DNA from: Sinorhizobium medicae | GTDB lineage: Bacteria; Pseudomonadota; Alphaproteobacteria; Rhizobiales; Rhizobiaceae | DNA length: 64,000 nt | Reading direction: 5' to 3' | Assembly (NCBI RefSeq): GCF_007827695.1 | Contig: NZ_VITA01000021.1 | Location: 1 to 64,000, forward strand | In this document: piece after piece, positions 11,217-34,194 of the stretch | Layout: every line of letters begins with the position of its first letter | How positions within the stretch are numbered: position 1 is the first letter of the stretch | The notes under the pieces: model-generated | Databases searched by the model: none | What the model was told of the DNA's origin: nothing | What the model saw: only the letters and a program-made list of their open reading frames with translations | Position numbers and translations under genes: made by a program

Positions 11217-11235
11217 ACAGCCGGATCGCAACGCC

Positions 11236-12785: not shown

Positions 12786-12830
12786 ATTGTCGACAATCAC
12801 GTTGACAACTTTTCGCTGATCGCCATACTG
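12786..12830 (+). promoter_or_regulatory. GntR operator and promoter for the transporter operon
   Basis: ATTGTCGACAAT (12786-12797) is a perfect palindrome. It is followed without a gap by the weaker CACGTTGACAAC (12798-12809), the same tandem layout as at 9481. TTGACA (12802-12807) and, 16 bases on, CATACT (12824-12829) make a likely promoter, with the -35 inside the second box. A small GACCTG/CAGGTC hairpin (12838-12853) lies in the leader. It precedes the second binding protein by about 160 bases. Confidence 0.65.
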
Positions 12831-12990
12831 TTCCCATGACCTGGAGGCAGGTCGCGTTACAGGGAGGTAATCCACACTCGATCCGACACGCGCCTATCCG
12901 GCGCAGTTCTTTGAAAAGACCGTGCCGGCGACGGATGCGGCGATGACAACAGACCTCCGATAAGGAGGCAAATTTCCAGAAGCGGAGCAA

Positions 12991-14556: not shown

Positions 14557-14565
14557 ATCAATCAC

Positions 14566-14597
14566 GACGCTCCGGGAGGAGGATTCCCCGGAGCGTC
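14566..14597 (+). other. Intercistronic hairpin between SBP 2 and permease
   Basis: GACGCTCCGGG (14566-14576) and CCCGGAGCGTC (14587-14597) form a perfect 11-bp stem with a ten-base loop. No T-run follows, so it is more likely an mRNA-stabilising or processing element than a terminator. Such hairpins are known downstream of binding-protein genes, where they keep that cistron more abundant. Confidence 0.65.
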
Positions 14598-14616
14598 CCG
14601 TGACCGAGGAATTCCA

Positions 14617-15585
14617 ATGCTGGTTTTTATCATAAAGCGCCTGGCAAACGCCGTCATGGTGATGTTGGCCGTCGCCTTACTTGCCTTTCTGATTTTCCGG
14701 CTTGCGGGCGATCCCGTCGAGATGATGGCCAACGAGCAGATGACGCAGGCCGACCGCGACAATCTGCGCGAACGGCTGGGTCTCAATGACAGCCTGATGA
14801 CGCAATATACCCGTTTCGTGGTCAATGCTGCACAGGGCAGTTTCGGCATCTCCTACCGCAACGGTCAAGACGTGCTGAGCCTGATCGCCGAACGATTTCC
14901 GGCGACGCTGGAGCTGGTACTGGTCGCCACGCTTATCTCGCTGCTGCTCGGCCTTCCCCTCGGCGTGCTGACGGCGATCAAGCGCGGCAAATGGTACACG
15001 GAGGGTCTGCAGTTTCTCTCGATCGTCGGCGTGTCGCTGCCGAGCTTCGTGGTAGGCATTCTGCTGATCCTCGTCTTCTCGGTTACGCTCGCCTGGTTTC
15101 CGGCTTTCGGGCGCGGCGACGTCGTGCAGCTTGGCTGGTGGTCGACGGGCCTCCTGACGCCTTCAGGCCGCGCGGCGATCCTGCTGCCGTCCATCGCGCT
15201 TTCGCTCTATCAGGTCACGCTGGTCATGCGTCTGGTCCGCGCTGAAATGCTGGAAGTTCTGCGCTCGGATTACGTCAAGTTTGCCCGGGCCCGCGGCATT
15301 CCGCGCTGGCGCATCTATTTCGTCCATGCGCTGCGCAACTGTCTGATGCCGGTGGTGACCATGACCGCCATGAATGTCGGTTCGCTGATCGCCTTCGCGC
15401 TCATTACTGAAACCGTGTTCCAGTGGCCGGGCATGGGCATGCTGTTCATCCAGGCCGTCACCTTCCTCGATATCCCCGTGATGGCGGCTTATCTCTGCAT
15501 CATTTCCTTCATTTTCGTCGTGCTCAACACGCTGGTGGACATCGCCTATGCGGTCATTGATCCCCGCCTGCGTACAGCCCGCTGA
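14617..15585 (+). CDS. ABC transporter permease (DppB/OppB type)
   Basis: A 322-residue inner-membrane permease of the dipeptide/oligopeptide class. An N-terminal membrane segment (VMLAVALLAFLIFRLAGDP) is followed by the periplasmic part with LGLNDSLMTQYTRFV, four or five further segments, and the ATPase-contacting EAA loop around DYVKFARARGIPRWRIYFVHALRNCLMPVV. It pairs with the next gene to form the channel. The start at 14617 lies 60 bases after the binding protein, beyond the hairpin. Confidence 0.92.
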   Translation: MLVFIIKRLANAVMVMLAVALLAFLIFRLAGDPVEMMANEQMTQADRDNLRERLGLNDSLMTQYTRFVVNAAQGSFGISYRNGQDVLSLIAERFPATLELVLVATLISLLLGLPLGVLTAIKRGKWYTEGLQFLSIVGVSLPSFVVGILLILVFSVTLAWFPAFGRGDVVQLGWWSTGLLTPSGRAAILLPSIALSLYQVTLVMRLVRAEMLEVLRSDYVKFARARGIPRWRIYFVHALRNCLMPVVTMTAMNVGSLIAFALITETVFQWPGMGMLFIQAVTFLDIPVMAAYLCIISFIFVVLNTLVDIAYAVIDPRLRTAR

Positions 15586-15619
15586 AACGCCCGTCGAACC
15601 GAGTGTGGAACCAAGACCG

Positions 15620-16570
15620 ATGAGCACCCAGACTTCCCGAACTCCGCCGATCACGCGTCCCTCGCTTCTCCAGCGCATCCGCAAAAGCGATCTGTGGTGG
15701 TCGTTCACGCACAGCAAGACCGCGATGTTCAGCGCCGCGCTCCTGGGGATCCTGATCCTGACCGCCCTCTTCGCCCCGCTGATCGCGCCGCAGAATCCCT
15801 ATGACGGGGCAGCGCTCGACATGTGGAAGGCGGAACTGCCGCCCCTATGGGAAGAAGGCGGCGAATGGCCTTTTCTTCTCGGCACCGACACGCAAGGGCG
15901 AGACATGCTGTCTGCCATTCTCTATGGGACGCGCATCTCTATCATCATCGGTATAGCCTCGGTCGCGCTCTCCCTCCTGATCGGCATGAGCGCGGGGCTG
16001 ATCTCCGGCTTCTTCGGCGGCTTCATCGACAATCTGCTGATGCGCATCGGCGACATCACTCTCTCCATTCCGACCATTCTCGTCGCCATTCTCGTCTCGA
16101 CCGTCGTGCGTCAGATGCTGCCCGTCAGCCTGCGTGAGGTTGGCGCGTCGGCGGTGCTCATCCTGGCCATCGCGCTATCGGCATGGGTGCAATATGCCCG
16201 AACGGTGCGCGCGCAGGCCATTGTCGAAACCGGCAAGGACTACGTTTCGGCAGCGCGGCTGATCGGCGTGCCTGCCCGGCGCATCATGGCCAGTCACATC
16301 CTGCCCAATACGTTGACGCCGATCATGGTAGCGGCCACCCTCAACTTCGGCATGGCGATCCTCACGGAAGCCACGCTTTCGTTCCTTGGCATCGGCATGC
16401 CACCGAGCCAGCCGTCTCTGGGAACGCTGATCCGCATCGGCAACCAGTTCCTGTTCTCGGGTTCCTGGTGGATCGTCCTCTTCCCCGTCCTGCAGCTCTG
16501 CATGCTGGTCGTGGCCGTCAACATGCTCGGCGACTGGCTGCGCGATGCTCTCAATCCGAAACTGAGGTAA
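15620..16570 (+). CDS. ABC transporter permease (DppC/OppC type)
   Basis: A 316-residue inner-membrane permease with the DppC-type N-terminal segment (TAMFSAALLGILILTALFAPLIAP), LGTDTQGRDMLSAILYGTRISI, and an EAA loop around GKDYVSAARLIGVPARRIMASHILPN, then LSFLGIGMPPSQPSLGTLI near the C terminus. The ATG at 15620 is preferred over an upstream in-frame codon because that would overlap the previous gene and add an unconserved tail. It forms the membrane heterodimer with the preceding gene product. Confidence 0.92.
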   Translation: MSTQTSRTPPITRPSLLQRIRKSDLWWSFTHSKTAMFSAALLGILILTALFAPLIAPQNPYDGAALDMWKAELPPLWEEGGEWPFLLGTDTQGRDMLSAILYGTRISIIIGIASVALSLLIGMSAGLISGFFGGFIDNLLMRIGDITLSIPTILVAILVSTVVRQMLPVSLREVGASAVLILAIALSAWVQYARTVRAQAIVETGKDYVSAARLIGVPARRIMASHILPNTLTPIMVAATLNFGMAILTEATLSFLGIGMPPSQPSLGTLIRIGNQFLFSGSWWIVLFPVLQLCMLVVAVNMLGDWLRDALNPKLR

Positions 16571-16575
16571 GTCCC

Positions 16576-17769
16576 ATGAACGACCTTTTGCTCCGCAACG
16601 TCAGGCCCATGGCAGGCGAAAGCTGCGATATCCTGATTAGGGACGGAAAGATCGCCGGTTTCGGGCGTTTTGAAGCGGAACCAGGCATGGCCGTGGAAGA
16701 TGGCGGCAACGCCATCGCCGCCCCCGGGCTGATCGATGCGCATACCCATCTCGACAAGACGACCTGGGGCATGCCGTGGCATGTCAACAACCGCGCCGCA
16801 GTCCTGCGTGAGCGTATCGATTTCGAACGCGAGCATCGTCTGGAGATCGGCATCGATCCGCACCGCCAGTCGATGCGTCATGCGATCGGTCTGGCCGCGC
16901 ATGGCGCAACGCATATCCGAAGCCATGTCGATATCGATCCGGTTCATCGCCTGTCGCTGGTCGAGGGCGTCTGGGAAACGCGCGAGAAGCTCAGGGGCAT
17001 CATCGACATCGAAATCGTCGCGTTTCCCCAATCAGGCCTGATGGTCATGCCCGGCACGAAGGAGTTGCTCGACGAGGCGCTGCGTCAGGGCTGCGAAGTG
17101 CTGGGCGGCATCGATCCGTGCGGGATAGACCGCGATCCGAAGGGCCAGCTCGACATTCTGTTTGCACTCGCCACCAAGCATGGCGTTCCGATCGACATTC
17201 ACCTGCATGAGACGGGCGATCTCGGCGCCTTCACCATGGAACTCATCTTCGAGCGGATCCGCGCCAACGGCATGGAAGGCAAGGTGGCAATCAGCCACGC
17301 CTTTGCGCTCGGCATGAACGACTATCTGCGCGTCGGCCAGCTGATCGAGCAGCTCGCTATTCTCGACGTCGCGATCCTCACCACCGGCGCGCCTTCGGCC
17401 ACGGTGCCCTCGATCAAGCGCCTGAAGGAAGCGGCCGTGCGCGTCGGCGGCGGCTGTGACGGTATCCGTGACACCTGGGGACCATGGGGCCAGCCGGACA
17501 TGCTGGACCGCGCCAAGGTTATCGGCATGAAGAACGGCGTGCGCTCGGATCACGATCTGGAGCATTTGCTGCACATCGTCTCGCAAGGCGGTGCGGATAT
17601 CATGCGGCTTGAAAATTACGGCCTTGAAGTCGGCCGCGATGCGGACTTCACCCTGTTGACCGGCGAGACGCTGGCGCATGCCGTGGTCGATGTCGCCCCG
17701 CGTCCGCTGGTCGTCAAAGGGGGTCGCGTCACGGCCCGTCAGGGTGTCGCCGTCGTGGAGATGCCGTAA
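16576..17769 (+). CDS. Cytosine deaminase-like amidohydrolase
   Basis: A 397-residue amidohydrolase of the CodA type, cytoplasmic, expected to deaminate or hydrolyse a cyclic nitrogen compound. It has GLIDAHTHLDKTTWG (metal ligands His56 and His58), DIHLHETGD (metal His and proton-shuttle Glu), AISHAFALG and CDGIRDTWGPWG (metal Asp). These match cytosine deaminase and its isoguanine, creatinine and atrazine-active relatives. The ATG at 16576 follows the permease by five bases. Its stop overlaps the next gene by one base. Substrate cannot be fixed from sequence. Confidence 0.85.
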   Translation: MNDLLLRNVRPMAGESCDILIRDGKIAGFGRFEAEPGMAVEDGGNAIAAPGLIDAHTHLDKTTWGMPWHVNNRAAVLRERIDFEREHRLEIGIDPHRQSMRHAIGLAAHGATHIRSHVDIDPVHRLSLVEGVWETREKLRGIIDIEIVAFPQSGLMVMPGTKELLDEALRQGCEVLGGIDPCGIDRDPKGQLDILFALATKHGVPIDIHLHETGDLGAFTMELIFERIRANGMEGKVAISHAFALGMNDYLRVGQLIEQLAILDVAILTTGAPSATVPSIKRLKEAAVRVGGGCDGIRDTWGPWGQPDMLDRAKVIGMKNGVRSDHDLEHLLHIVSQGGADIMRLENYGLEVGRDADFTLLTGETLAHAVVDVAPRPLVVKGGRVTARQGVAVVEMP

Positions 17770-19262
17770 TGAGCGGAGCGTTCGATACCCTTCCGCTCGG
17801 GCGCCGGCCGGAAGGCCGCACACTGATCACCGCAAGCTGGGTCGTCGGGCATAAGGACGGCAGACACCGGCTTCTCCGCAATGGCGAGGTGGTTTTCGAG
17901 AACGGCGAGATTCTGTTCGTCGGGCACCGTTTCGCCGGTGAAACGGCGCGCCGGATCGACTTCGGCGACGCCTTGATCAGCCCCGGCCTGATCGATCTCG
18001 ACGCGCTGTCCGATCTCGATACGACCATCCTCGGCATCGACAATCATCCCGGCTGGGCCAAGGGCCGCGTCTGGCCGCGCTCCTATGTCGAGGCCGGTCC
18101 TTATGAAATGTACACGCAGGAGGAGCTTGCTTTTCAGAAGCGGTTCGCCTTCGCCCAGCTGTTGTTGAACGGCATTACCACGGCCGCTCCCATCGCCTCG
18201 TTGTTTTATCGAGAATGGGGTGAAACGGTCGCCGAATTCGACGCCGCTGCGGAGGCCGCGGGGGAACTTGGCTTGCGTGTCTATCTGAGCCCCGCCTATC
18301 GTTCGGGCGGAATGGTGCTGGAAGCGCCTGGCAAGATCGTGCCGGTCTTCGACGAGGAGCGCGGTATTCAGGGTCTGAAAGACGCCATTGCCTACATTGA
18401 ACGCCAGAATGGCCGCCATGGCGACCTGGTGCGCGGCATGCTGGCGCCGGACCGAGTGGAGACCTCGACGATCGGGCTCTTACAGCGCACCGATGCCGCC
18501 GCTCGCGATCTAGGCTGCAAATTCCGGCTGCATATGGCGCAGGGTGCGATGGAAGTCGACACTGTGCGCATGCTGCACGGCTCGACAGCACCGGTCTGGC
18601 TTTCAAACCACGGCCTGCTGAGCGACCGCCTGATCGCGCCGCATGCCACCAATGCCACGGACGAAGACCTCGGCCATTACGCGGCGAACGGCGTTTCCAT
18701 CGTCCATTGTCCGCTCGTCTCGGGCCGTGGCGGTTCGATCCTAAACTCCTTCTCCTCCTGCGTGAAACGCGGGATCAATATTGCCATGGGCACCGACACG
18801 ACCCCGCCCGACATGCTGATGAACCTGCTGGCGGGCCTCATCACGGGCCGCATCGCCGACGGCGCACCGGACCGCCTGCGTTCAGCCGACCTGTTCGATG
18901 CGGCGACGATCGGCGGCGCTAAGGCGCTGGGCCGTTCCGATCTCGGCCATCTGTCACCGGGAGCGCGCGCCGATATTGCGATCTTCCGACTCGACGACGT
19001 CTTCATGGCTCCGTCAATCGACCCGATCACCACGATCGTCACCGGCGGTTCGGGAAAGATCACCCATGCGGTCTTCGTCGACGGCCGCGTCTCCATGCTT
19101 GATCGCCGGTTGGCCGGCTTCGACATGCAGGAGGCGCGCATTCGGGCGCAGATACAATATGACGGGCTGGTCGCCCGATATCCCGAGCGGAGCTGGAACA
19201 ATCCTCCGGTCGCCGAAATCTTCCCGCCCAGCTATCCGATAGAGGGGAACGTCAATGGGTGA
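17769..19262 (+). CDS. Amidohydrolase-like protein B lacking the HxH motif
   Basis: A 497-residue paralogue of the protein at 11236-12726. It shares the LGRRPEGRTL start, the PGLIDLDALSDLD string in place of the metal-binding HxH, GPYEMYTQEELAFQKRFAF, RLHMAQG, MGTDTTPPDM and the C-terminal SYPI. Two independent copies retain the same substitution, which argues for a genuine subfamily rather than decay. It is coupled to the deaminase (TAATG overlap) and overlaps the following ATPase gene by eight bases, so it belongs to the transporter operon. Confidence 0.85.
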   Translation: MSGAFDTLPLGRRPEGRTLITASWVVGHKDGRHRLLRNGEVVFENGEILFVGHRFAGETARRIDFGDALISPGLIDLDALSDLDTTILGIDNHPGWAKGRVWPRSYVEAGPYEMYTQEELAFQKRFAFAQLLLNGITTAAPIASLFYREWGETVAEFDAAAEAAGELGLRVYLSPAYRSGGMVLEAPGKIVPVFDEERGIQGLKDAIAYIERQNGRHGDLVRGMLAPDRVETSTIGLLQRTDAAARDLGCKFRLHMAQGAMEVDTVRMLHGSTAPVWLSNHGLLSDRLIAPHATNATDEDLGHYAANGVSIVHCPLVSGRGGSILNSFSSCVKRGINIAMGTDTTPPDMLMNLLAGLITGRIADGAPDRLRSADLFDAATIGGAKALGRSDLGHLSPGARADIAIFRLDDVFMAPSIDPITTIVTGGSGKITHAVFVDGRVSMLDRRLAGFDMQEARIRAQIQYDGLVARYPERSWNNPPVAEIFPPSYPIEGNVNG

Positions 19263-20238
19263 CATGCAGGAACCAGTCGTCGAAGTCCGCAATCTGCGTG
19301 TGGATTTTCCCGGCCGCCACGGCACCGTAACGGCGCTGTCGGGTATCAGCCTGTCGATTCGGCCGGGCGAAATACTCGGTGTCGTGGGCGAATCCGGCGC
19401 AGGGAAATCCATGACGGGGCTTGCCATTCAGGGTCTGCTCGAAGCGCCGGGCCATATTGCCGGCGGCGAGGTCTGGCTCGGTGAGAGCCGCATCGATACG
19501 CTCGACGACCGCGCCATGGAAAAGATCCGCGGCCGCGAGATCGGCGCGATCTTTCAGGACCCCCTCACCTCGCTCAATCCGCTGTTCACGGTCGGCGCTC
19601 AGCTCGTCGAAACCATTCGCCGGCATCTCGGTCTTGGTAAGGCCGAAGCCCGTGCCCGCGCCGTGCAACTGCTGCGCGATGTCGGCATTCCTTCGCCTGA
19701 GGACCGGGTCAACCAGTATCCGCATCAGTTCTCGGGCGGCATGCGCCAGCGTGTCGTGATCGCACTTGCGCTTGCGGCGTCGCCGAAACTCGTCATCGCC
19801 GACGAACCTACCACGGCGCTCGACGTGTCGATCCAGGCGCAGATCATTTCGCTCCTTCGCAAATTGTGCAAGGAGAAGCAGACCGCCGTCATGCTCGTCA
19901 CGCACGATATGGGCGTGATCGCGGAAGCTGCCGACCGCATTGCGGTCCTGTATGCCGGACGGCTAGTCGAGATCGGGCCCGTCGAGCAGGTGCTGCACCA
20001 GCCGCGCCATCCCTATACGCAAGGTCTTATGGCTTCGATTCCGTCGCTGGGTGCGCGGGTCGAGAGGCTCAACCAGATCGACGGCTCCATGCCGCGCCTG
20101 GACGCCATACCCGACGGCTGCGCCTTCAATCCGCGCTGCAGCATGGCAGGTCCGCGCTGCCGGCGCGAGCAGCCGGAGCTTGTTTTTGCAGGCCATAGTG
20201 CAAGCGCATGCTGGCTGAACGCAGGAGGCACCGCATGA
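19255..20238 (+). CDS. ABC transporter ATP-binding protein (DppD/OppD type)
   Basis: A 327-residue ATPase. Walker A is GESGAGKS (about residues 45-52), the signature is FSGGMRQRV, Walker B is LVIADEPTTALDV and the switch His is in LVTHDMG. The C-terminal oligopeptide/dipeptide domain with GCAFNPRCSMAGPRCR carries Cys residues that in some relatives bind an iron-sulphur cluster. It overlaps its neighbours on both sides (eight bases upstream, ATGA downstream), consistent with tight stoichiometry. Confidence 0.92.
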   Translation: MGDMQEPVVEVRNLRVDFPGRHGTVTALSGISLSIRPGEILGVVGESGAGKSMTGLAIQGLLEAPGHIAGGEVWLGESRIDTLDDRAMEKIRGREIGAIFQDPLTSLNPLFTVGAQLVETIRRHLGLGKAEARARAVQLLRDVGIPSPEDRVNQYPHQFSGGMRQRVVIALALAASPKLVIADEPTTALDVSIQAQIISLLRKLCKEKQTAVMLVTHDMGVIAEAADRIAVLYAGRLVEIGPVEQVLHQPRHPYTQGLMASIPSLGARVERLNQIDGSMPRLDAIPDGCAFNPRCSMAGPRCRREQPELVFAGHSASACWLNAGGTA

Positions 20239-21221
20239 CGAAACCGCTGCAAAAGACGCCGGCATTGACCGTTGACCACCTGGTCAAGACATTCGATGTG
20301 TCCGCTCCCTGGCTCAACCGTGTGGTGGAGCGCAAGCCCCGGCAGTATCTGCAAGCCGTGAACGATATCAGCTTCACCGTGCCCGCCGGGGGCTGCCTCA
20401 GCATCGTCGGCGAGAGCGGCTGCGGAAAATCCACCGTTGCCCGCCTTGTCACCGGCCTGCACCGTCCGACCAGCGGCGCAATGCGCTTCGCGCCCGGAAA
20501 GAGCGGCGCGGCCCTTTCGGCGCAGATGATCTTTCAGGACCCCTACGCCTCGCTCAACCCGCGATGGCGGGTGAAGAATATCGTTGCCGAACCGCTGCGC
20601 GAAATGAAGCTGCGCAAGACCGCCGCCGAAGTCACCGAGCGTGTGGAAGAGCTTCTGCACACGGTCGGGCTATCGCCATCCGACGGTGAGAAGTTCCCGC
20701 ACGAATTTTCCGGTGGTCAGCGCCAGCGCATCTCGATCGCGCGCGCGCTGGCAAGCGAGCCGGAATTCCTGGTCTGCGACGAGCCGACCTCGGCGCTCGA
20801 CGTGTCGGTGCAGGCACAGGTGCTTAACCTGATGCGCCGTTTGCAGGACGAACTGGGGCTGACCTATCTCTTCATCAGCCATGATATGAGCGTCGTTCGC
20901 CAGATGTCGGACCGCATCGCGGTGATGTATCTGGGCCGCATCGTGGAGGAGGGCGACACGGAGCAGCTGTTTGCCGAGCCGCGTCATCCCTACACGCAGC
21001 TCCTGCTGCAGACGATTCCGAACATCGCGGCGCCGAACCGCAACCGGGAGCCCGCCAGCGGCGAAGTGCCGAGCCCGCTGAAGCCGCCGTCCGGCTGTGC
21101 CTTCCACCCGCGTTGCCCGGTGGCCATCGGGCGCTGCTCCAAGGAAGTGCCTGAGGTGCGGGTCTTGCCCAACGGTACCCGTGTGACCTGTCATCTGGTT
21201 GAGGACGGGTTAGCGAAATGA
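20235..21221 (+). CDS. ABC transporter ATP-binding protein (DppF/OppF type)
   Basis: A 328-residue ATPase, partner of the preceding one. Walker A is GESGCGKST, the signature is FSGGQRQRI, Walker B is [13 protein letters not shown] and the switch region is FISHDMS. The C-terminal domain has [18 protein letters not shown]. The start at 20235 gives an ATGA overlap with the stop of the first ATPase; an in-frame codon 27 bases upstream is less likely. It is the last gene of the operon, and a hairpin follows the stop. Confidence 0.92.
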
Positions 21222-24733: not shown

Positions 24734-25465
24734 ATGGTCAACCACCGTAGACTGTCAGCGTCGTTAAGGACGCTTCAGGCAGCGAAGCATCGCGCGGACC
24801 TTCAGTCCGCATTGGGCGAACTTTGCGAGCACTACGGCGTGTCGCACATGACAATTCTTGTGGTTTGCAGCGGTGGCAGATCGGGCTCGTACCCCTATTG
24901 TTGCACGACGTATCCGGAACGGTGGACGGAAAAATACGTCGGCAAGTGCTTTTTCGAAATAGACCCGGTGATCGACGTGATTCGGTGGGGGTTCCTCCCG
25001 GTGGACTGGTCCTCTCTCGATCGGCGATCAGAACAGGCCCACCGCTTGTTTAAGGAAGCTCGTTTGTACGATATCGGCCCTCATGGCCTGACGATCCCAA
25101 TCCGGGGTCCTAAAGGCGAACGATGTCTCCTCTCCGTGACGTCGAACCTACCCGGGCGCCATTGGTCACGGCTACGCGCTTCGAGTATTCACGAACTTCA
25201 GATCCTTTCCCACTATCTTCATGAGACCGTGCTTTCTGCCAGCGGTCTGCGAGGGACCGACCGTTATCGGAACCTCTCCAGGCGCGAAAGTCAGTGCTTC
25301 CAGTTGCTTGCAACAGGTCGGATTTCTAAGCAGATAGCAGCGGACCTCGGCATCTCGGAGAACGCCGTGAAATTGTACCTGCGTTCGGCAAGGATGAAGC
25401 TGGGAGCTGCTACAAGTCATCAGGCCGTTGCCCGGGCGAGCTTCCTCGAGTTGATCAAGATCTGA
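24734..25465 (+). CDS. LuxR-family regulator with acyl-homoserine-lactone-type binding domain
   Basis: A 243-residue regulator with an N-terminal autoinducer-binding domain and a C-terminal LuxR HTH. Residues that contact the lactone signal in TraR appear conserved: Trp and Tyr in YPERWTEKYVG, Asp in FEIDPV, Trp in PVDWSSL and Gly in GPHGLTIPIRG. The HTH reads LSRRESQCFQLLATGRISKQIAADLGISENAVKLYL. No LuxI synthase is in the window, so it looks like a solo receptor. The ATG at 24734 has no strong ribosome site; a GTG at 24704 is possible. Its target may be the palindrome 57 bases downstream. Confidence 0.87.
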   Translation: MVNHRRLSASLRTLQAAKHRADLQSALGELCEHYGVSHMTILVVCSGGRSGSYPYCCTTYPERWTEKYVGKCFFEIDPVIDVIRWGFLPVDWSSLDRRSEQAHRLFKEARLYDIGPHGLTIPIRGPKGERCLLSVTSNLPGRHWSRLRASSIHELQILSHYLHETVLSASGLRGTDRYRNLSRRESQCFQLLATGRISKQIAADLGISENAVKLYLRSARMKLGAATSHQAVARASFLELIKI

Positions 25466-25521
25466 GCGCTCGATCGCAGATTCCAGGTCTGTATGTCTCC
25501 ATCGGGCCTTCTCAACAACAT

Positions 25522-25545
25522 CAATCTACCGAATTCGGTAGATTG
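25522..25545. promoter_or_regulatory. Perfect 24-bp palindrome, candidate lux-type box
   Basis: The half-site CAATCTACCGAA is followed immediately by its exact reverse complement, giving a perfect 24-bp dyad with no spacer. It lies between the LuxR gene and the methyltransferase gene, 125 bases before the latter's ATG. Length and lack of spacer fit the 18-20 bp lux/tra boxes bound by LuxR dimers, though the base sequence is not a known box. Confidence 0.6.
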
Positions 25546-25670
25546 GCTGCGCCCTCCCAAGGGTCCACACATGGCACCCACAAACTCACGCACGGAAGAT
25601 GCCGACGCAGCCGAAACACGCTCAATGAACCTGAGGTGAAGCGCCCGCCGGCGTTATTCGGGAGGTGGCT

Positions 25671-26741
25671 ATGGTGGATCGACTAACGATTGAACATTGG
25701 CGAAACGCTCCCAGGCTTACATGCTTGGCCGCGTTCTTCGAAACGACCGCAAGCGGACAGGGTGGAGCGCCGGACCTTGCCCAGCCGCAGCTCGACATGA
25801 GTCTGCTCGACTTCGATCTTGAGGTCTCAGTTTTCTCCGATACGCACCGGCGTCTATGGGGACCCTTCGACAGCCATTATTTCGCGAGCATCCCCTACAG
25901 GCTCGAAGAGGAATGCCGCCTGGGTGCTGCGATACTATCCTTTGCATCGAGGGCCTGGGCACGCAGCGCTTCCCCAACAACAATATACACACTTGGGACG
26001 GGCACCGGTTGCCTTGCGCGCACGCTTGCCACGCTTGGCAATGGTCGCATCGAGGCGCTCTGCTGCAGTCCAACGGCTGCCAACCGCACATCATTCTTTG
26101 CGAAACGGGCAAGCGAGCACGCTCACTTCTTTCACGGCCCGTTCTTCGAATTGGATGACGAACGATACGCGACCGATGACGATCTCCTCCCGTTTCGGGG
26201 CGGATTCGACGTGCTATTAGAGGATACGACGTTTCAGATGTACGACCGTGATCGTTTAAAGCAGCTCGAGTTCGTCGTCCCTCGCATACGGCCTGGCGGT
26301 CTCCTCGTGCAGGTGCAGAAGCTCGCGCATGAAGATCGCGACATCTATGAGGAACGCGAGCGGCAGAAGGACGAGGTTTTCAAGTCCCGGTTCTTCTCGA
26401 CAGGTCACATATCCAAGAAAAAAGATGAAGTCCTCAACACGATGACGGACCTTCAAGTCGATCTGGCGACCACGGTAGCCGCTCTGAGAGCGTTTTTCCG
26501 TTACTCGGTACTGACCTGGAACAGCGGGAACTTCTACACCATCGTCTCATCTAACTCCCGGTCTTCCGTGTTGGAACTGATTTCGCTGATGGTGAAGCCG
26601 GCAATTCCACCAGGCTATTGCCACGAACGCCTGCCAGCCACGATCGTCGATACTGAGGTAGAGGCGTTGGCTCCTGATCTGACGTGGCGCAGCGCGAACA
26701 CAATGGTGCCGCTCGCGCCGAAGCTCGGCATCATGAAATGA
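25671..26741 (+). CDS. Class I SAM-dependent methyltransferase-like protein
   Basis: A 356-residue protein. Motif I of the SAM-binding Rossmann fold is visible in TIYTLGTGTGCLARTLATLGNGRIEALCCSP (about residues 105-135); FDVLLEDTTFQMYDRDRLKQLEFVVPRIRPGGLLVQVQ matches the motif IV to VI region. The C-terminal third is family-specific. The substrate is unknown. GGAGG precedes the ATG at 25671. It ends in an ATGA overlap with the next gene, so the two are co-expressed, probably from the palindrome-bearing promoter. Confidence 0.75.
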   Translation: MVDRLTIEHWRNAPRLTCLAAFFETTASGQGGAPDLAQPQLDMSLLDFDLEVSVFSDTHRRLWGPFDSHYFASIPYRLEEECRLGAAILSFASRAWARSASPTTIYTLGTGTGCLARTLATLGNGRIEALCCSPTAANRTSFFAKRASEHAHFFHGPFFELDDERYATDDDLLPFRGGFDVLLEDTTFQMYDRDRLKQLEFVVPRIRPGGLLVQVQKLAHEDRDIYEERERQKDEVFKSRFFSTGHISKKKDEVLNTMTDLQVDLATTVAALRAFFRYSVLTWNSGNFYTIVSSNSRSSVLELISLMVKPAIPPGYCHERLPATIVDTEVEALAPDLTWRSANTMVPLAPKLGIMK

Positions 26742-28147
26742 CGGCCATCCGAAAGGCCGGCGAGCATTGCAGCACAGCCGACGTGCGCCGCGCGTTGTCT
26801 GCCTTGATGCCGCATCTCACCTCTTATTGGGAGCGCCCCCTTCGGGACTATGCGTCGGTTGCCCACGACGTCAAGAACTTCCATTCCGAGAGTAGCGCGC
26901 GTCGTCATGCAATGGAGCTGCTCTGCCGCTGCGTCAAACGAGCGGCACGCAGGTCCGGTTACGACCATGACGAAGCTCAAAGCGCCAGCCTGCAGTTGAT
27001 GGCGTCGCCGGTGCTGCAGACCGGCCCGCACTGCCTGCTGCTTATCGAACCGGATGCGTTCTACACGCACCTGTTCAGCCTGTTGGGCCTGAACGCCAAT
27101 AGCCGCGAATGGTACATCACCTATCACGCCTCGACCGTCAGTTTCGCGGAAAAGGCAAAGAAGGGTCCCGGATGGCTCTGGCTTGAGGGCGAGCCGCTGA
27201 ACGTCTTCGGCCTGCCTCGAGGCCAGATGGATTCATTCAGCATCTGCGGCTCGAATGGACCCTATCGTTTCGCTTTCTCGAATGCCAAAGGTGATCCAGC
27301 ACCGAATGACTCTGCCGCCTATCTCCTCTCCGAACTGCCTTCCGATGAATTTTCCTCCGCGGCCGACGCAATCAGGGCGGCCAATCAAACTCTCTGGCGC
27401 GGCAACCTCCCCTCCCCGATCAAGCTGCTCCAGCTCGACGATTTCGACATCGCAGACCTGGTCGCCGACCATTTCGACGACGCTGGATCCTGGATGTCGG
27501 CTCGTTTTATCGGAGGCGGCAAGGTTGCTGAGAGCATCCTGGACGCCATGGATCGCCTGAACATTGGGTCGTGGCAGGGTTGGGTACGCAGAACGACCGA
27601 TCTCTTCTGGCGCTTGGAGAAAGGCAGGATTGTTCCGCTCCGCCTCCAGGGCAATACCCTCAGGGCCCGTACCCCGTCCAGTTTCGCCGTGAGCTTCCGG
27701 CCGGACAGGATCGCTGCGGCGCTCCGCCAGCGAGCGATCGTGCCCAGTCTGTATACTGTGTTCCTGGTGCTTTCCATCTTGCCGGGCGTGAGAGCGCTCG
27801 GGGGATGTCGCCAGACCATTTACTACCCCCTCATGCGCTATCTTACAGCGATTGGCCTTGAGCGATCGGGTAATTTCGATCTCTTGTCCGACCTGCGTGG
27901 GGACGACCGACCCGGGCTTTGGGGCCACCGTGTCTTGAAGCCTGCTGACGGCTATCCATTCCAGGACATCGGGTTTTTCGGCGAGGCCCCGCGACCCCTT
28001 TCAGAATACGCCGAAATGCCTTTGGTGAAGTCGAGCGGTGATCTCGCAAGGTTCACCGGGGATCCCATCTGGGCAAACTTGTCGGAGCAAATCGCCAACG
28101 GGGTCATCACTTCAGGGTCAACCGAGTGGCAATTGTCTGGTTCGTGA
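26738..28147 (+). CDS. Hypothetical protein, coupled to the methyltransferase
   Basis: A 469-residue protein that I do not recognise. It starts with the ATGA overlap at 26738. No signal peptide or membrane segment is convincing, although PSLYTVFLVLSILPGVRAL is hydrophobic. Notable strings are YWERPLRDYASVAHDVKNF, CLLLIEPDAFYTHLFSLLGL, WLWLEGEPLNVFGLPRG, GGCRQTIYYPLMRYL and a Trp-rich middle. The organisation suggests an enzyme that works with the methyltransferase, possibly on a metabolite made in response to the LuxR signal. No function is claimed. Confidence 0.7.
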   Translation: MTAIRKAGEHCSTADVRRALSALMPHLTSYWERPLRDYASVAHDVKNFHSESSARRHAMELLCRCVKRAARRSGYDHDEAQSASLQLMASPVLQTGPHCLLLIEPDAFYTHLFSLLGLNANSREWYITYHASTVSFAEKAKKGPGWLWLEGEPLNVFGLPRGQMDSFSICGSNGPYRFAFSNAKGDPAPNDSAAYLLSELPSDEFSSAADAIRAANQTLWRGNLPSPIKLLQLDDFDIADLVADHFDDAGSWMSARFIGGGKVAESILDAMDRLNIGSWQGWVRRTTDLFWRLEKGRIVPLRLQGNTLRARTPSSFAVSFRPDRIAAALRQRAIVPSLYTVFLVLSILPGVRALGGCRQTIYYPLMRYLTAIGLERSGNFDLLSDLRGDDRPGLWGHRVLKPADGYPFQDIGFFGEAPRPLSEYAEMPLVKSSGDLARFTGDPIWANLSEQIANGVITSGSTEWQLSGS

Positions 28148-28257
28148 TCGAGGAAGGATGCTGAGCAGCTTCGATGCTGGGCGTCGTCGTACCATTTGAT
28201 CAGAGGGTGGCAGCACACGGTGTTTTCAGCGCAGCCTGGGAACTGGTGGAGGTCGAT

Positions 28258-28776
28258 GTGTCGATTGAAGAAGGGTCGATAATCAGGCGGTTATCAGTCG
28301 ATGACATCGACGTTTTTCGCCGCATACGTCTGGAGGCGCTTTCACACGAACCCTTTTCGTTTGCGAGCGTATTTGGTGATTGGGTCCATCTCTCCGACCG
28401 CGAATGGCGCCAGCATCTGGATCAGCCAGTGTTTGTCGCGTTCCTGAGTGGGCAGCCCGTTGGCATGATGGGGCTCAGGTTTGAGCGTGCGAGGAAGATG
28501 GCGCATCGCACGAGGCTTGTCAGCGTCTATGTGCGGAAAGACAATCGAAGGACCGGGATCGCGGCAAAGCTTTTGCATGACGTTACGGAGCATGCACGAG
28601 ACCGCGGAGTTCTGCAGGTGGAGCTTGCGGTGAGTGCGGACAATTCGGCCGCGATACGGTTCTATCAACGCCACGGTTTCGTAGAGGTTGGCCGCATCCC
28701 AAACGGCTTCCTGGGCCACGGCACCGAGAACGACGAGTTGATCATGGTACTGCGCTTGGCTCGCGAGAGGGGATGA
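28258..28776 (+). CDS. GNAT N-acetyltransferase
   Basis: A GNAT-fold acetyltransferase of about 172 residues. The acetyl-CoA loop is TRLVSVYVRKDNRRTGIAAKLLHDVTEHARDRG (the RxxGxA-type P-loop), followed by LAVSADNSAAIRFYQRHGFVEVGRIP, both standard. The GTG at 28258 is preferred because GGAGG lies five bases upstream; an upstream start at 28174 would add an unconserved extension. The substrate is unknown; it resembles RimI/phosphinothricin-type enzymes. It follows the unknown protein by 110 bases and may or may not be co-transcribed. Confidence 0.8.
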   Translation: MSIEEGSIIRRLSVDDIDVFRRIRLEALSHEPFSFASVFGDWVHLSDREWRQHLDQPVFVAFLSGQPVGMMGLRFERARKMAHRTRLVSVYVRKDNRRTGIAAKLLHDVTEHARDRGVLQVELAVSADNSAAIRFYQRHGFVEVGRIPNGFLGHGTENDELIMVLRLARERG

Positions 28777-29019: not shown

Positions 29020-29430
29020 TTACGAGGGGGAAATCGGCATGCTCGAGGCCATAAGCACTTCCACGGCCTTCCCAACAATATCCTGCTGCATGGCGGGCTT
29101 TACCATGACGACGGCGCCGTTGCTTTTCTTTCGCATCTCGTCGGGTAGGGTTTGGCCACTATAGAAGAAGAATGGAATGCCCCGCTCGTTGAGGAGATCG
29201 ATGACTCTCTCGGTGGTTGCCGTTCCCAAGCGAATGTCGAGCACCGCGAGCGCAAGCGCTTCATTCTTCGCTGCCACCAATGCGGTCTCAAGGGTCCCGC
29301 ACGGTCCCACCACCTGAGCTCCAACATCGACAAATGCTGCTTCCAAATCGAGAGCGATCCAAACCTCATCCTCGACGACCAAGACTCTGAGGCCCTCAAG
29401 AAACCTGCCATCGTCACTTTTCCCCACCAT
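29020..29430 (-). CDS. Single-domain response regulator
   Basis: A 136-residue receiver domain: LRVLVVEDEVWIALDLE (acidic pocket), LALAVLDIRLGT with phosphoacceptor Asp65, FFFYSGQT and the conserved Lys in VMVKPA. There is no output domain. It starts inside the last codons of the kinase gene (stop at 29414), so it is translationally coupled and is the likely phosphorylation target of that HWE kinase. The ATG at 29430 is favoured because the receiver fold begins soon after it. Confidence 0.88.
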   Translation of the reverse strand: MVGKSDDGRFLEGLRVLVVEDEVWIALDLEAAFVDVGAQVVGPCGTLETALVAAKNEALALAVLDIRLGTATTERVIDLLNERGIPFFFYSGQTLPDEMRKKSNGAVVMVKPAMQQDIVGKAVEVLMASSMPISPS

Positions 29431-32400
29431 CTGGCCGGATCTCCGGAAGCTCGATGTCGATCGTGCAGACGACGCCATCCGGTTGGAAATCGCGATGAAC
29501 CGTAGATCCTGGCAAACTCTTCTCGATCAGAACGCCGCCGAAACCCTGCTCGCTCGGCGGCTCGACCGGCGGGCCACCGCGTTCTTGCCAGATAACCCCG
29601 AGGCTTCGGCCGTTGTTCCCGAGTTTCCAACTGAGCTTGATCTGTCCGTTTCCTGTAGAAAATGCGCCGTATTTCGCGGCATTGGTCGCGAGCTCGTGGA
29701 GCACGAGACCGAACGGCGTAGCGAGGTCCGGCGGCAACGTCACTGGCTCGCCCTCGATCTGCAGCCGGCGCCGATCGCTGGCGGCGTAGGCATCGAGTTG
29801 CCGTCGCGCGAGTTCGTTGAGCTCAGCGCCGCTCCATTCAGAGTCGACAAGCAGCTTGTGGGCGCTCGCAAGCGCTGCGAGGCGCCCTTCAAAGCGCTCG
29901 ACGAAGTCCTCGCTCGATCGGGTTGTGCGGAGAGTCTGTCGCGCCAGCGACTGGACGACAGCGAGCGTGTTCTTCACGCGATGGCTTAGCTCGTTCAGCA
30001 AGAGCTGCCCGCGCCGCTCCCAGCGCTTGCGGTCGGTAATGTCGCGGGTGCTTTCCAGCACAAGGCGGCGCTCGCCAAACGGCACGAGCTCTATTTGGCT
30101 CTCTACCGTCAGCACGCGACCGTCCTTCGTGGTATGGTTCAGTTCGCCGCTCCAACGGCCCTTTTGGCTGAGTGTTCGCCTGAGCTTGTCAAAGGACGAG
30201 CCGGGAACGCCGGTCTTGAGCAGTTCTTCCTTGCGTCTTCCGAGCGCCTCCTCACGCGAATAACCATAGAGTTCCTCGCTGCCGCGATTCCACTGCATTA
30301 CGCCATCGTCAAAGTCCCACACGAATATCGGTGAGCGCGAAAGCTCGACAAGCCGCATTTCCTGCTCAAGGCGTTGCCCGCTCTCCTTCGCCGCCTCTTC
30401 GGCATGGCGCCGCTCGCTGATGTCGACGAACGTGACCACAACGCCGTCTATCTTGTCTTCGATTGTTCGGTAGGGGCGCATCCGCACCAGATACCAGCCG
30501 TCGTTGCGGCCCTTCACCTCGTGTTCGACTGGCTTGAGTGTCTCCAGCACCGCCCGCGCGTCATCAGAAAGTCTCTTATATTGGAGGCGATGCGTGAAAT
30601 CAGTGATCGGCCGGCCTTCGTCGTTCGAAGTGACGTTAAATATTTCCGTCAAACGCGGGGTAAACCGCTTGATACGCAGGGAGGGGTCAAGGAAAAGCGT
30701 CGCGATGTCGGTCGCGGCCATCAAGTTCTGTAGGTCGCTGTTAGCGCGCGATATGCTTTCCAGCTTCAGCTTGAGCTCATTGTTGACAGTTTGCAGCTCC
30801 TCGTTGATGGATTGTAGCTCTTCCTTGCTCGTTTCCAGTTCCTCGGCCGTCGAACGGTATTCCTCGTTCATCGACTGCAGCTCTTCGTTGGCAGCCCGCA
30901 ACTCCTCAGTAGCAGTGTCCGACTCCTCGCTCGTCAGGCGAAGCCGGTTTTGCGCGAGCTGCAATTCCTCCTGCAATCGGCGGATCGCCTCGTCAATCGT
31001 CGGGCGCCCGTCAAGCGTATCGAGCACGACCTCCTGGGTCTTGTCGATGGCTTCACCTTCGATAAAGAGCACAAGAGCATGCCTCGTACGCTCCGTCCCC
31101 CGGACCACAGGCTTCACTTGCAGGTAGACCCGGTGCGGCTGCCCATCGAGGTCAGCAAGAATGGGCATGCTCAACGTGGGTTCATTCCGCCCAAAGGCCC
31201 GGTGCAGCGCTGCTCTTAGATCGAAGCGAAATTCCTCACGCACGAGATCCGTGGCGGCGGTACTAACAGGGCCTCCCGACGGCTTGAGAAACCGTCCGGC
31301 ATTTTCCGAAAGATGAATTGCGTGGTGGCTTTCATCAACCAGCATGCTTGGAGGCGCGATTTTCTCGAGCATCTGGCGGTGTACCGCTGCGTCGCTGCCG
31401 TGCCCTGCCGGCGGCGTCCGAATAATGGTCGATTTCATTTCCGGCTTATGTGGCCCAAGCAGCGCCGGCAGCACCATGGGTCGAGCACCGGCGCCCGCTA
31501 GTGCCCTGTAGATACGCGCCTCGCGATCCACAGGGCGGAAGAGTCCGGGGCAGTCAGCACTTTCCGACGATCCGAGGAAGAGGAAACCACCTGCGTTGAG
31601 CGCGTAATGAAACGTGTTGCACACCTGCTGCTGCAGCTGCCGATCGAGGTAGATCAGCAGGTTTCGGCAGGAAATCATGTCGAGATGGGAGAAGGGCGGG
31701 TCTCTAAGTAGACTGTGGCTGGCAAACAGAACCGCGTCTCGCAAATCGCGGCGCACTCGATAATGATCTCCCTCACGCTGGAAGAAACGGCGAAGTCGTT
31801 CCTCCGAGAGATCGCCTTCGACCGTCGACGGGTATCGTCCCTCGCGCGCGATGCGAAGTGCCTGTTCGTCGAGGTCCGAGCCGAAGACCTGGATTTCCGG
31901 CGAGAGGTCGCGGCGTGCCGCCTCCTCGAGCAGAAGGATGCCAATTGTGTAGGCCTCCTCACCGGTAGCGCAGCCCGGAACCCAAACCCTGATCTTGTCG
32001 GCAACTTCTTTTCCGTCAAACAGGTGTGGGATGACTCTTTCGGCCAGTACCTCGAAAGCCGAAGGATCGCGAAAGAACGTTGTAACCGAAATCAAAAAGT
32101 CGCTGAACAGCGCCTGAGCTTCCTCTGGATTCTCGCGCAGGTAGTTGTAGTAGTCCGCAAAGGTCTCCCTCCTGGCAACCTGCGCTCGCCGTCCGATACG
32201 CCGCAAAATCGTAGCCCGCTTGTATTGGGAGAAATCGTGTCCGGTTCGGCCGCGCACATGGGCCACAATTCGCCCGATCATCTCATCATCGTTTACGCGG
32301 AACTGGTGGGACGGAAGCTGATCACGGCGGGCGAGCAACTCAGCCACCCGATGAGGAAGCTCTCGGATAGGCAGCACGAAGTCTGCAACCTCAGTGGCGA

Positions 32401-32902
32401 TGGCGTTGCGCGGCATGGAGGCATATTCTGCCTCATCGGGATCCTGGACGAGCACGATTCCGTCCGCCTCCTTGATAGCCTTGACCCCAATCGCACCGTC
32501 CGCCCCGGCACCAGTGAGAATAATCGCAAATTCGCTCCGATGCTCCTCGGCAAGCGATCGAAAGAAAAAATCAATGGGCGCGCGGAGGGCATGCGGCTCT
32601 TCGAAGGGGAGCGCGGCTATCGTACCGTCGGCAATCTTAAGCCGACGGTTTGGCGCGATGACGTAAACGTGGTTGCTTTCAAGACGCGCCTGGTCCTCGA
32701 CCTGCGTAACCGGCATGCGCGTCCGTGCCGCCAAAATGTTCGCAAGCTCGCTTCTGGCGTGCGGATCGAGATGGACAATGACGACGAAAGTCGCGCCAGT
32801 GTCAATCGGCATAAGATCAAAAAAGGTCTGAAGTGCCTGGACGCCCCCGGCGGAAGCCCCAATCGCGACAATCGGAGGATCAGCTTTTTGAACCATGGCC
32901 AA
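29414..32902 (-). CDS. CheB-CheR-PAS-HWE histidine kinase fusion
   Basis: A 1162-residue soluble signalling protein. Residues 10-190 are a CheB methylesterase with Ser17 (GASAGG), His44 (VHLDP) and Asp135 (GAGADGA). Residues 210-480 are a CheR methyltransferase with VPGCATGEEAYTIG and ISCRNLLIYLD. A long coiled coil (EELRAANEELQSMNEEY and following) leads to PAS domains, then an HWE kinase with LNELSHRVKNTLAVVQSLARQ and the W-x-E of VIWQERGG. Such fusions may integrate methylation chemistry with phosphorelay, but receptor substrates are not evident nearby. It is coupled to the response regulator downstream. Confidence 0.9.
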   Translation of the reverse strand: MAMVQKADPPIVAIGASAGGVQALQTFFDLMPIDTGATFVVIVHLDPHARSELANILAARTRMPVTQVEDQARLESNHVYVIAPNRRLKIADGTIAALPFEEPHALRAPIDFFFRSLAEEHRSEFAIILTGAGADGAIGVKAIKEADGIVLVQDPDEAEYASMPRNAIATEVADFVLPIRELPHRVAELLARRDQLPSHQFRVNDDEMIGRIVAHVRGRTGHDFSQYKRATILRRIGRRAQVARRETFADYYNYLRENPEEAQALFSDFLISVTTFFRDPSAFEVLAERVIPHLFDGKEVADKIRVWVPGCATGEEAYTIGILLLEEAARRDLSPEIQVFGSDLDEQALRIAREGRYPSTVEGDLSEERLRRFFQREGDHYRVRRDLRDAVLFASHSLLRDPPFSHLDMISCRNLLIYLDRQLQQQVCNTFHYALNAGGFLFLGSSESADCPGLFRPVDREARIYRALAGAGARPMVLPALLGPHKPEMKSTIIRTPPAGHGSDAAVHRQMLEKIAPPSMLVDESHHAIHLSENAGRFLKPSGGPVSTAATDLVREEFRFDLRAALHRAFGRNEPTLSMPILADLDGQPHRVYLQVKPVVRGTERTRHALVLFIEGEAIDKTQEVVLDTLDGRPTIDEAIRRLQEELQLAQNRLRLTSEESDTATEELRAANEELQSMNEEYRSTAEELETSKEELQSINEELQTVNNELKLKLESISRANSDLQNLMAATDIATLFLDPSLRIKRFTPRLTEIFNVTSNDEGRPITDFTHRLQYKRLSDDARAVLETLKPVEHEVKGRNDGWYLVRMRPYRTIEDKIDGVVVTFVDISERRHAEEAAKESGQRLEQEMRLVELSRSPIFVWDFDDGVMQWNRGSEELYGYSREEALGRRKEELLKTGVPGSSFDKLRRTLSQKGRWSGELNHTTKDGRVLTVESQIELVPFGERRLVLESTRDITDRKRWERRGQLLLNELSHRVKNTLAVVQSLARQTLRTTRSSEDFVERFEGRLAALASAHKLLVDSEWSGAELNELARRQLDAYAASDRRRLQIEGEPVTLPPDLATPFGLVLHELATNAAKYGAFSTGNGQIKLSWKLGNNGRSLGVIWQERGGPPVEPPSEQGFGGVLIEKSLPGSTVHRDFQPDGVVCTIDIELPEIRPDGGEK

Positions 32903-33118: not shown

Positions 33119-33138
33119 TTTGACCGATGGAGCACGCG

Positions 33139-34194
33139 ATGCGAGACGTCATAGCCATAGGAGGTTCGCTCGGCGCGGTGGCAGCTTTGAAGCACCTGCT
33201 TGGCAAACTTCCGGGCGACTTCGCCGCCGCTGTATTCGTCGTCATACATGTCGGCGCAGGCGGCAATGACCTACTCGCAGATATATTCGATGCGCATGCC
33301 GAAATTCCAGTCACCACCGCTGTCGACGGGGAGCACGTCGAACCTGGACACGTCTATGTTGCGCCCGCGGACCACCATCTCCTCGTCATCGACGGTATCA
33401 TCAGGCTTGGCCGAGGACCCCGCGAGAACCTGGCCCGACCGGCGGTCGACCCTCTCTTTCGATCGGTCGGTTTGAACTACGGACCGCGCGCCATCGCGGT
33501 CGTACTCACGGGGATGTTGAATGACGGGGCCGCCGGCCTTGCCGATGTCAAGCGGTGCGGTGGACTGACCGTCGTCCAGAACCCTAGCGACGCAGTTGCA
33601 CCGGACATGCCGATGGGGGCCCTGAGGGCAAGCGACGTCGATCATCGCGCGCCCCTCGACGGTCTCGCCGCACTCCTCATCGAGCTCACCCACGAAGAGG
33701 CCGGTCCGCCAATTCCCGTCCCGACCGACATCAAGCTCGAGGTCGATATCGCGCTCGGCCGGCAGATCGGTTCCGAGAAAATGCTAAACATCGCGGACCC
33801 GGTTCCGATCTCGTGCCCCGCCTGCGGCGGCGTGCTTTCGCAGATCAAGAGTTGGCCGCCGCTGCGGTTTCGGTGTCAAGTCGGGCATGCCTATACGTCC
33901 GAGGCTTTGGTTGCGGAGTCGGAGGGCGCCGTCGACGAGGCGCTGAGAGTTGCCCTTCGTATAATCGAGGAGAGGGTGACTCTCAGCGAAAAAATGGCAG
34001 ACGATGCAGATCATAGCGGTTTCGCCGCCGCCGCCGCCGCATACAGAAGGCGGGCCGATGAGGGACGGGAGCACGCGGAGACACTTCGCTACGCCATAAT
34101 CGGCGTTGCCTCGGAGGCAACTGCAGGCGAATTGGAGCACGACGGTAGGGCCGCCGCCAAAAATCCGGGTCACATCGACCCGGAATCATCTTGA
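33139..34194 (+). CDS. CheB-type protein-glutamate methylesterase
   Basis: A CheB catalytic domain without the usual receiver: IAIGGSLGAVAALKHLL (catalytic Ser), VFVVIHVGAGGND (catalytic His), AVVLTGMLNDGAAGL (catalytic Asp). A C-terminal extension has CPACGGVLSQI...FRCQVGHAYT, a possible zinc-binding module seen in stand-alone CheB proteins of rhizobia, followed by an alpha-helical tail. The ATG at 33139 is chosen over 33127 because GGAG lies six bases upstream. It is divergent from the CheB-CheR kinase, so both may belong to one signalling module. Confidence 0.85.
   Translation: MRDVIAIGGSLGAVAALKHLLGKLPGDFAAAVFVVIHVGAGGNDLLADIFDAHAEIPVTTAVDGEHVEPGHVYVAPADHHLLVIDGIIRLGRGPRENLARPAVDPLFRSVGLNYGPRAIAVVLTGMLNDGAAGLADVKRCGGLTVVQNPSDAVAPDMPMGALRASDVDHRAPLDGLAALLIELTHEEAGPPIPVPTDIKLEVDIALGRQIGSEKMLNIADPVPISCPACGGVLSQIKSWPPLRFRCQVGHAYTSEALVAESEGAVDEALRVALRIIEERVTLSEKMADDADHSGFAAAAAAYRRRADEGREHAETLRYAIIGVASEATAGELEHDGRAAAKNPGHIDPESS

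Follow-up and report, generated by a model that had tools for sequence, protein, structure and literature searches.

A locus of Sinorhizobium medicae, carried on a pSMED02-like megaplasmid and contained in a 64,000-nucleotide stretch of contig NZ_VITA01000021.1 (hereafter, the window), encodes in order a luxR gene, a 24-bp dyad, a methyltransferase-like gene, a gene for a 469-amino-acid protein of no known family (hereafter, the orphan), and a GNAT gene. Here, the first four parts are interpreted as a quorum-sensing receptor with its operator and output. With moderate confidence, we propose that a RaiR-type solo LuxR, loaded with an N-acyl-homoserine lactone (AHL), switches on a methyltransferase-orphan(-GNAT) output operon that most likely makes or modifies a small, amino-acid-like compound. 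The trio of luxR, methyltransferase, and orphan genes and the site between them are conserved, the site is also found in luxI promoters of the same LuxR clade, and on one plasmid tra-box-like cores take its place. Aligned with pSMED02 of strain WSM419, the 12 kb that surround the trio match from end to end at 100.0%, and the orphan has 100% identity to its counterpart on that plasmid. The features are as follows.

24734..25465, plus strand: LuxR-type AHL receptor/regulator of a RaiR-like clade with no adjoining luxI (Pfam Autoind_bind and GerE, contact residues kept, clade support of 97 in the Shimodaira-Hasegawa-like approximate likelihood-ratio test, SH-aLRT)
25522..25545, no strand: predicted operator dyad, a rai-type lux box (perfect 12-bp arms; a like site at 24/30 loci; the same motif at 4/32 luxI loci)
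25671..26741, plus strand: S-adenosylmethionine (SAM)-methyltransferase-like gene, 356 amino acids from the conserved ATG (sub-threshold Methyltransf_24, weak CmoA similarity, homologue names, start from relatives)
26738..28147, plus strand: 469-amino-acid protein of no known family, ATGA-coupled to the methyltransferase gene (no Pfam/NCBIfam match)
28174..28776, plus strand: GNAT acetyltransferase gene (Acetyltransf_1, E 7.3e-19; follows the orphan gene in 22/36 loci)

The dyad, CAATCTACCGAA/TTCGGTAGATTG, spans positions 25522-25545 as two 12-bp arms without a spacer and is centred 137 bp before the methyltransferase start, so that the perfect 24-bp palindrome reported between luxR and the methyltransferase gene by a first-pass annotation, made from the sequence without database searches, is confirmed. 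By simple arithmetic, 12 complementary pairs at a given centre have a chance of ~4^-12, and ~0.004 such dyads are expected in 64 kb. No second match at up to 3 mismatches was found in the 6.53-Mb genome of the same strain, where a degenerate form of the site reaches 3 mismatches at four other places and fewer at none. At each of 30 loci, the 420 bp nearest the methyltransferase start were scanned for the best site; at 24 loci this site agreed with the window dyad at no fewer than 16 of the 24 positions and was centred 91-162 bp ahead of the gene. This site was present at all 21 loci with a clade LuxR upstream versus 3 of the 9 without (L009, L042, and, weakly, L051), an association for which the hypergeometric value of 1.4e-4 is only rough because the locus rows are related; the 6 loci missing it are L008, L044, and four AraC-type loci resembling those of R. 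etli. When up to 1 mismatch is allowed, the degenerate pattern has 11 occurrences in 294 Rhizobiaceae genomes, spread over 10 of them; 8 occurrences lie upstream of this methyltransferase gene and 3 elsewhere, and a reversed-pattern control in the same genomes yielded 0. At up to 2 mismatches, the 18 genomes that hold both genes of the pair contain 14 places in 11 genomes, with 11 at this methyltransferase gene. Since the degenerate pattern was drawn from methyltransferase-promoter sites, these counts indicate rarity elsewhere and not an independent discovery. Collectively, the comparisons suggest that the dyad behaves as an operator, and binding by the LuxR protein is predicted.

An independent test is offered by a site profile that was trained solely on methyltransferase-promoter sites and then run on 32 luxI loci, comprising the two of the strain itself and 30 of the 32 places found in 17 pair-bearing genomes. 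A strong site (21.8-24.5 bits) lies directly upstream of luxI in 4 of these loci, and the best score elsewhere (28 loci) is 7.7 bits. One of the four site-bearing genes, at locus L118 (site of 21.8 bits), is raiI, being 95.0% identical to the gene annotated raiI in R. etli CIAT 652. LuxR proteins beside the four site-bearing luxI genes are 41-46% identical to the window LuxR (43% for the one beside raiI), compared to 27-35% for those beside 13 other luxI genes. A tree of 41 LuxR proteins, built by a quick method with SH-aLRT support and no bootstrap, places the 21 trio LuxRs and the four LuxRs of site-bearing luxI genes in one clade (SH-aLRT 97) that includes no further luxI-adjacent LuxR of the tree; the RaiR-type clade makes up 26 of the 41 rows. 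The simplest reading of these comparisons is that the window LuxR descends from, and would still work like, a RaiR-type AHL receptor, with the methyltransferase and orphan genes as its output. Genome G206 carries the pair with its site and no LuxR beside it, and has a clade LuxR-luxI pair, also with the site, on another contig; in genome G175 (L042), a luxI-luxR pair with a site of its own starts 7.6 kb after the orphan gene. All 17 other pair-bearing genomes have LuxI genes, a count for which there is no family background rate to compare against. It should be noted that in genome G260 (L044 and L105) the methyltransferase and orphan genes have no site in front, and a luxI ~46 kb off on the same contig keeps it; the methyltransferase frame there may be shortened at its start.

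The luxR reading frame encodes 243 amino acids from ATG 24734, similar to its trio homologues (241-250 amino acids). A domain search with the longer frame from GTG 24704 returned Autoind_bind (E 3.2e-28, 98.6 bits) and GerE (E 3.4e-14, 52.6 bits), both over their cut-offs. The positions that we take to contact AHL, in TraR numbering W57, Y61, D70, P71, W85, and G113, correspond to W64, Y68, D77, P78, W92, and G118 in the window protein and are invariant in 21/21 trio LuxRs, in agreement with the first-pass annotation, which had described the lactone-contacting residues as kept. That annotation also held that no synthase is present, which is correct for the neighbourhood but not for the genome. 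No luxI adjoins the gene, making its product a RaiR-like solo and not part of a RaiI/RaiR system; elsewhere, on contigs C3 and C11 (the trio is on C21), the genome encodes two LuxI synthases. The luxI on C3 sits with a trb operon and with a LuxR that groups with the LuxR beside trb/traM at locus L073, and that on C11 has a LuxR gene just upstream. RaiI of R. leguminosarum makes 3-hydroxy-C8-homoserine lactone (3-OH-C8-HSL), according to the accessible part of PMC5977203, and by analogy our guess for the ligand of the window LuxR would be a short 3-hydroxy or 3-oxo AHL.

Of 297 sampled Rhizobiaceae genomes, 25 carry the orphan gene, which is also present in 145 plasmid records (121 predicted to be conjugative); in a sample of the class (385 genomes), it was found in the S. 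medicae genome itself only. As this search took no more than a few first-look candidates from each genome for scoring, distant members may be missed. The methyltransferase was found in 23 of the 297 genomes. Both genes occur in 18 genomes, 7 have the orphan only, as distant (~25%) or fragmentary copies, and 5 have the methyltransferase only, as relatives of 45% identity or less. Gene order was compared at the 36 loci that hold both genes; these include repeats (L041 of L007 and L045 of L009) and near-duplicates such as L052, L053, and L063, and L038, L039, the short loci L010-L037, and the methyltransferase-less rows L055-L062 and L074 fall outside the comparison. In 24 of the 36 loci the pair is preceded by a clade LuxR (2.8 kb away at L040, in two pieces at L069), and in 22 it is followed by a GNAT gene. 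Genes of the tra or trb type, probed with five proteins, are within the fetched flank at 11 loci. An SBP_bac_5 ABC transporter gene is present at 14 loci and a CapA family gene at 15, and both of these counts are lower bounds since many loci end 6-9 kb downstream. Near many trios there is a small helix-turn-helix gene and sometimes peptidase T, and at R. etli-type loci a major facilitator superfamily (MFS) gene precedes the orphan gene. The first-pass annotation had proposed looking for the trio in other genomes, and both trio and site do recur there. Distant relatives of the orphan (~25%) have neighbours of their own: at L060, an SBP_bac_5 transporter and a PF12692 methyltransferase; in Mesorhizobium sp. 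WSM1497, ABC genes and a PF12692-kind methyltransferase, with a GNAT gene directly before; and in a distant group (L056), glycosyltransferase and exporter-type ABC genes.

For the methyltransferase-like gene, the ATG at 25671, which is common to relatives and just follows a GGGAGG motif, is favoured as the start over GTG 25665. The gene stops at 26741 and overlaps the orphan start by the ATGA at 26738-26741, as the first-pass annotation had it. The product is named a SAM methyltransferase on the basis of sub-threshold matches to Methyltransf_24, at E 0.01 or better in 6 of 8 aligned proteins, and of the name class I SAM-dependent methyltransferase that NCBI gives to homologues; no Pfam or NCBIfam model exceeds its cut-off. 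Foldseek matches of its predicted structure mix methyltransferases and aminotransferases. The CmoA model scores 15.4 bits against a cut-off of 285, a similarity of E ~0.003-0.01. Relatives without the orphan sit beside a LysE translocator gene on small plasmids of E. coli, where 24 of 5,426 genomes carry them, in every case on a plasmid, and a Streptococcus plasmid record (L149) has a similar pair. Other relatives in the Rhizobiaceae are accompanied by AraC, MFS, amino-acid-type ABC, and alanine racemase genes. At L156:634-6676, a relative lies between AMP-binding (adenylation) and acyl-CoA-dehydrogenase-like (flavoenzyme-like) genes in an apparent small biosynthetic cluster, with an MFS gene and a YjgF/RidA-type gene near. 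Due to this company of LysE or MFS transporters and racemase or adenylation genes, a small amino-acid-like product is favoured. One of the E. coli relatives, on 5.7-kb mobilizable plasmids (L148:3635-5164, NZ_AP022820.1), is 38.7% identical, is annotated as hypothetical, and adjoins the LysE gene.

The orphan protein (26738-28147) has no Pfam or NCBIfam match, consistent with its earlier description as belonging to no recognised family, and among 28 aligned orphan proteins searched at E up to 10, no family was common to more than 1. These 28 sequences share 35 invariant columns. Their profile, when searched against the PDB, gave a best E of 0.16, which is meaningless, and a search for relatives in viral contigs returned 14 stretches that matched a pattern, none of them a relative. 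Kinship with the bacillithiol synthase BshC was considered and is not supported: PF10079 is not among the matches of the 28 proteins at E up to 10, and the best PDB match in Foldseek, to BshC at E 0.39, was made with a model of low confidence and is treated as no evidence. No PF10079 member was found in the S. medicae genome or in 398 genomes of the phylum. The pair was also compared with plasmid genes that have been described. RcgA/RcgR, transfer genes of pLPU83a, were rejected since their products, in the accessible parts of PMC9601222 and PMC13055273, are a six-helix membrane protein and a protein resembling alpha/beta-hydrolases, and the hypothetical genes of pRet42a belong to other families as far as the accessible part of PMC4294206 describes them.

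Downstream, the GNAT gene at 28174-28776, an element absent from the first-pass annotation, begins 26 bp after the orphan gene on the same strand and possibly belongs to the same unit. Its true start is perhaps later than 28174, as many GNAT relatives align only from around residue 24.

A further line of evidence is provided by a plasmid on which the operon appears to be under a different quorum-sensing regulator. In Agrobacterium tumefaciens CFBP5499, plasmid pAtCFBP5499a encodes luxI, methyltransferase, orphan, and GNAT genes in a row, with an overlap of 8 bp between the luxI (L151:7156-8008; PF00765, 85 bits) and the methyltransferase gene. A scan of the 17 kb of this locus found no rai-type site (best score 6.8). 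Upstream of the luxI-headed operon are two tra-box-like cores of the sequence TGCAGATCTGCA, which we take to be the TraR box. On this plasmid the core also begins 73 bp ahead of traI; it recurs between traC and traA in three related loci (with one mismatch in a fourth) and had 0 occurrences in 200 shuffles of the locus. Since the luxI-headed operon stands behind tra-box-like cores and the rai-type site is gone, quorum control seems to have been kept while the receptor was exchanged. The traI gene, a second luxI on this plasmid, lies ~15 kb beyond the luxI of the operon.

In the mechanism that we propose, AHL from another synthase in the same cell, or from neighbours, would load the RaiR-type LuxR, which would then, at high cell density, bind the 24-bp dyad and turn on the methyltransferase-orphan(-GNAT) genes. 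These genes would be a quorum-sensing output and not a signal maker, and what their enzymes most likely produce or alter is a small compound resembling an amino acid. Where the module is more complete, the neighbouring oligopeptide-type ABC transporter would import this compound or something related, and the module would travel with conjugative plasmids. The supposition of the first-pass annotation that the operon is signal controlled, with an AHL-type receptor governing two coupled genes via the dyad, is supported by the sequence comparison; binding, activation, the AHL ligand, the class of product, and its export are what we infer from it.

Several observations weigh against this interpretation. 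The DNA-binding domain of the window LuxR has F at a position where 20 of 21 trio LuxRs have L. Neither luxI gene of the strain's own genome carries a rai-type site in the profile scan. Perfection of the palindrome is not conserved, given that full symmetry (12/12 pairs) is seen in 3 of 24 sites and 7-11 pairs in the rest, and at up to 2 mismatches 7 of the 18 pair-bearing genomes lack the site and 3 of the 14 places lie away from this gene. Of 60 listed plasmid records, 4 have a LuxR split in two, indicating that it can be lost and that the regulatory link can decay; at L040 an intact LuxR is 2.8 kb away, and R. etli-type loci have an AraC gene in the place of LuxR and no site. With respect to the enzymes, the window methyltransferase matches Methyltransf_24 below threshold (E 0.003; 18.8 bits versus a cut-off of 26.3), and its structural model is poor (predicted local distance difference test, pLDDT, of 50). 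The structure prediction for the orphan that the first-pass annotation had suggested (AlphaFold2 with an 8-row alignment) reached a pLDDT of 46 and gave no fold. Finally, no exporter gene is found beside the window trio or at LuxR-type loci, and none is in view in S. medicae ml2, where a methyltransferase relative lies beside an alanine racemase gene.

The bolder form of the proposal, in which the product is an opine- or metallophore-like currency that is exported and re-imported only by carriers of the module, is tentative and, in our estimation, unlikely as it stands. It is suggested by the SAM-type enzyme, by the SBP_bac_5 importer gene at 14 of 36 loci and the MFS gene at R. etli-type loci, and by the racemase and amino-acid-type transporter genes near methyltransferase relatives. 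Staphylopine and opine metallophore systems are defined by nicotianamine-synthase-like and opine-dehydrogenase domains, which are not among the Pfam matches of either the methyltransferase or the orphan (the neighbours were not searched), and both importer and exporter are absent beside the window trio. The likeness to those systems is one of workings only, namely a SAM-using enzyme and an SBP_bac_5 importer, with an exporter and a racemase in relatives. A macromolecule, such as a tRNA, an envelope polymer, or a conjugation component, could instead be what the operon modifies under quorum control, and we consider this rather improbable. While the methyltransferase weakly resembles the tRNA-modification protein CmoA, CapA and tra/trb genes often lie nearby, and no exporter adjoins the window trio, the CmoA similarity is slight and the LysE/MFS transporter, alanine racemase, or adenylation genes beside methyltransferase relatives point away from a macromolecular target.

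Two further possibilities connect the enzymes to the signal itself. The first-pass annotation had raised a non-LuxI route to a SAM-derived signal, which the same LuxR would sense; the receptor and enzyme genes do adjoin, and LuxR solos that sense non-AHL signals exist, PauR and PluR being examples in the accessible part of PMC10134790. This idea fares poorly and is judged very improbable: other LuxRs of this clade have ordinary LuxI partners whose genes bear the same site, luxI heads the CFBP5499 run behind tra-box-like cores, the AHL-contact residues are invariant, and the R. etli form keeps both enzymes beside an AraC gene without this LuxR. That the operon destroys or alters AHLs by methyl or acetyl transfer, as quenching or feedback, would fit its link to quorum sensing and its position adjoining AHL genes on some plasmids. 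We regard this as scarcely credible, since the searches named no AHL-degrading domain and a methyltransferase relative resides on E. coli plasmids of 5.7 kb in which no luxI is annotated.

Compared to known systems, the RaiR-type output operon proposed here most resembles RaiI/RaiR of Rhizobium etli and R. leguminosarum, with which it shares the LuxR clade and the kind of site found upstream of both raiI and the methyltransferase gene; it differs in having no adjoining luxI and in its target, a methyltransferase-orphan operon. Like TraR/TraI, it involves LuxR-type control on conjugative rhizobial plasmids, and the CFBP5499 operon bears tra-box-like cores, but identity between the window LuxR and the one beside trb/traM at L073 is 28%, the site is another one, and the target is no transfer gene. 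With the AHL-sensing solos ExpR, BisR, and QscR it has in common intact AHL-contact residues, no adjoining synthase, and LuxI genes elsewhere in the genome, and unlike them it has one close dyad match in the genome and belongs to a clade tied to one operon. To judge from the accessible part of PMC5977203, R. etli rai mutants are altered in nodulation or nitrogen fixation, and in R. leguminosarum bv. viciae no phenotype beyond 3-OH-C8-HSL production has been tied to the Rai system. A literature search, for which the raiIR paper and most subscription papers were beyond reach, turned up no paper on this operon or operator. The word methyltransferase is absent from the accessible parts of two surveys of LuxR solos (PMC10134790; PMC4338825), and a recent survey of Rhizobium quorum sensing, in its accessible part, defers LuxR solos to a later paper (PMC13133039).

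Elsewhere in the window, the minus strand downstream of the GNAT gene encodes a CheB-CheR-PAS-HWE histidine kinase fusion protein (29414-32902), and a second CheB gene lies at 33127-34194. Upstream of the trio, positions 9576-21221 hold two genes each for SBP_bac_5 binding proteins and for oligopeptide-type ABC ATPases; as the former share only 26-27% identity with the binding protein of the conserved module, they are probably not its counterpart.

For RaiR-type quorum sensing, the targets of which are poorly known, the analysis supplies a specific target operon that is conserved, together with a predicted operator. It also draws attention to an unannotated protein family that is coupled to a methyltransferase-like enzyme, one with relatives in plasmid records of E. 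coli and Streptococcus, and it links the two to conjugative plasmids of rhizobia. That the same package recurs on related plasmids suggests that crowded cells jointly make some small compound, and if the product is a shared metabolite, it could account in part for the persistence of such plasmids. A more speculative possibility, which we put forward without expecting it to hold in full, is a new class of quorum-controlled plasmid pathway in which the methyltransferase and the orphan, as a new enzyme family, would make an exported, amino-acid-derived, opine- or metallophore-like compound that carriers re-import, with control rewired among RaiR-, TraR-, and AraC-type regulators while the enzymes are kept. 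If true, the plasmid would pay its carriers in a private currency at high density.

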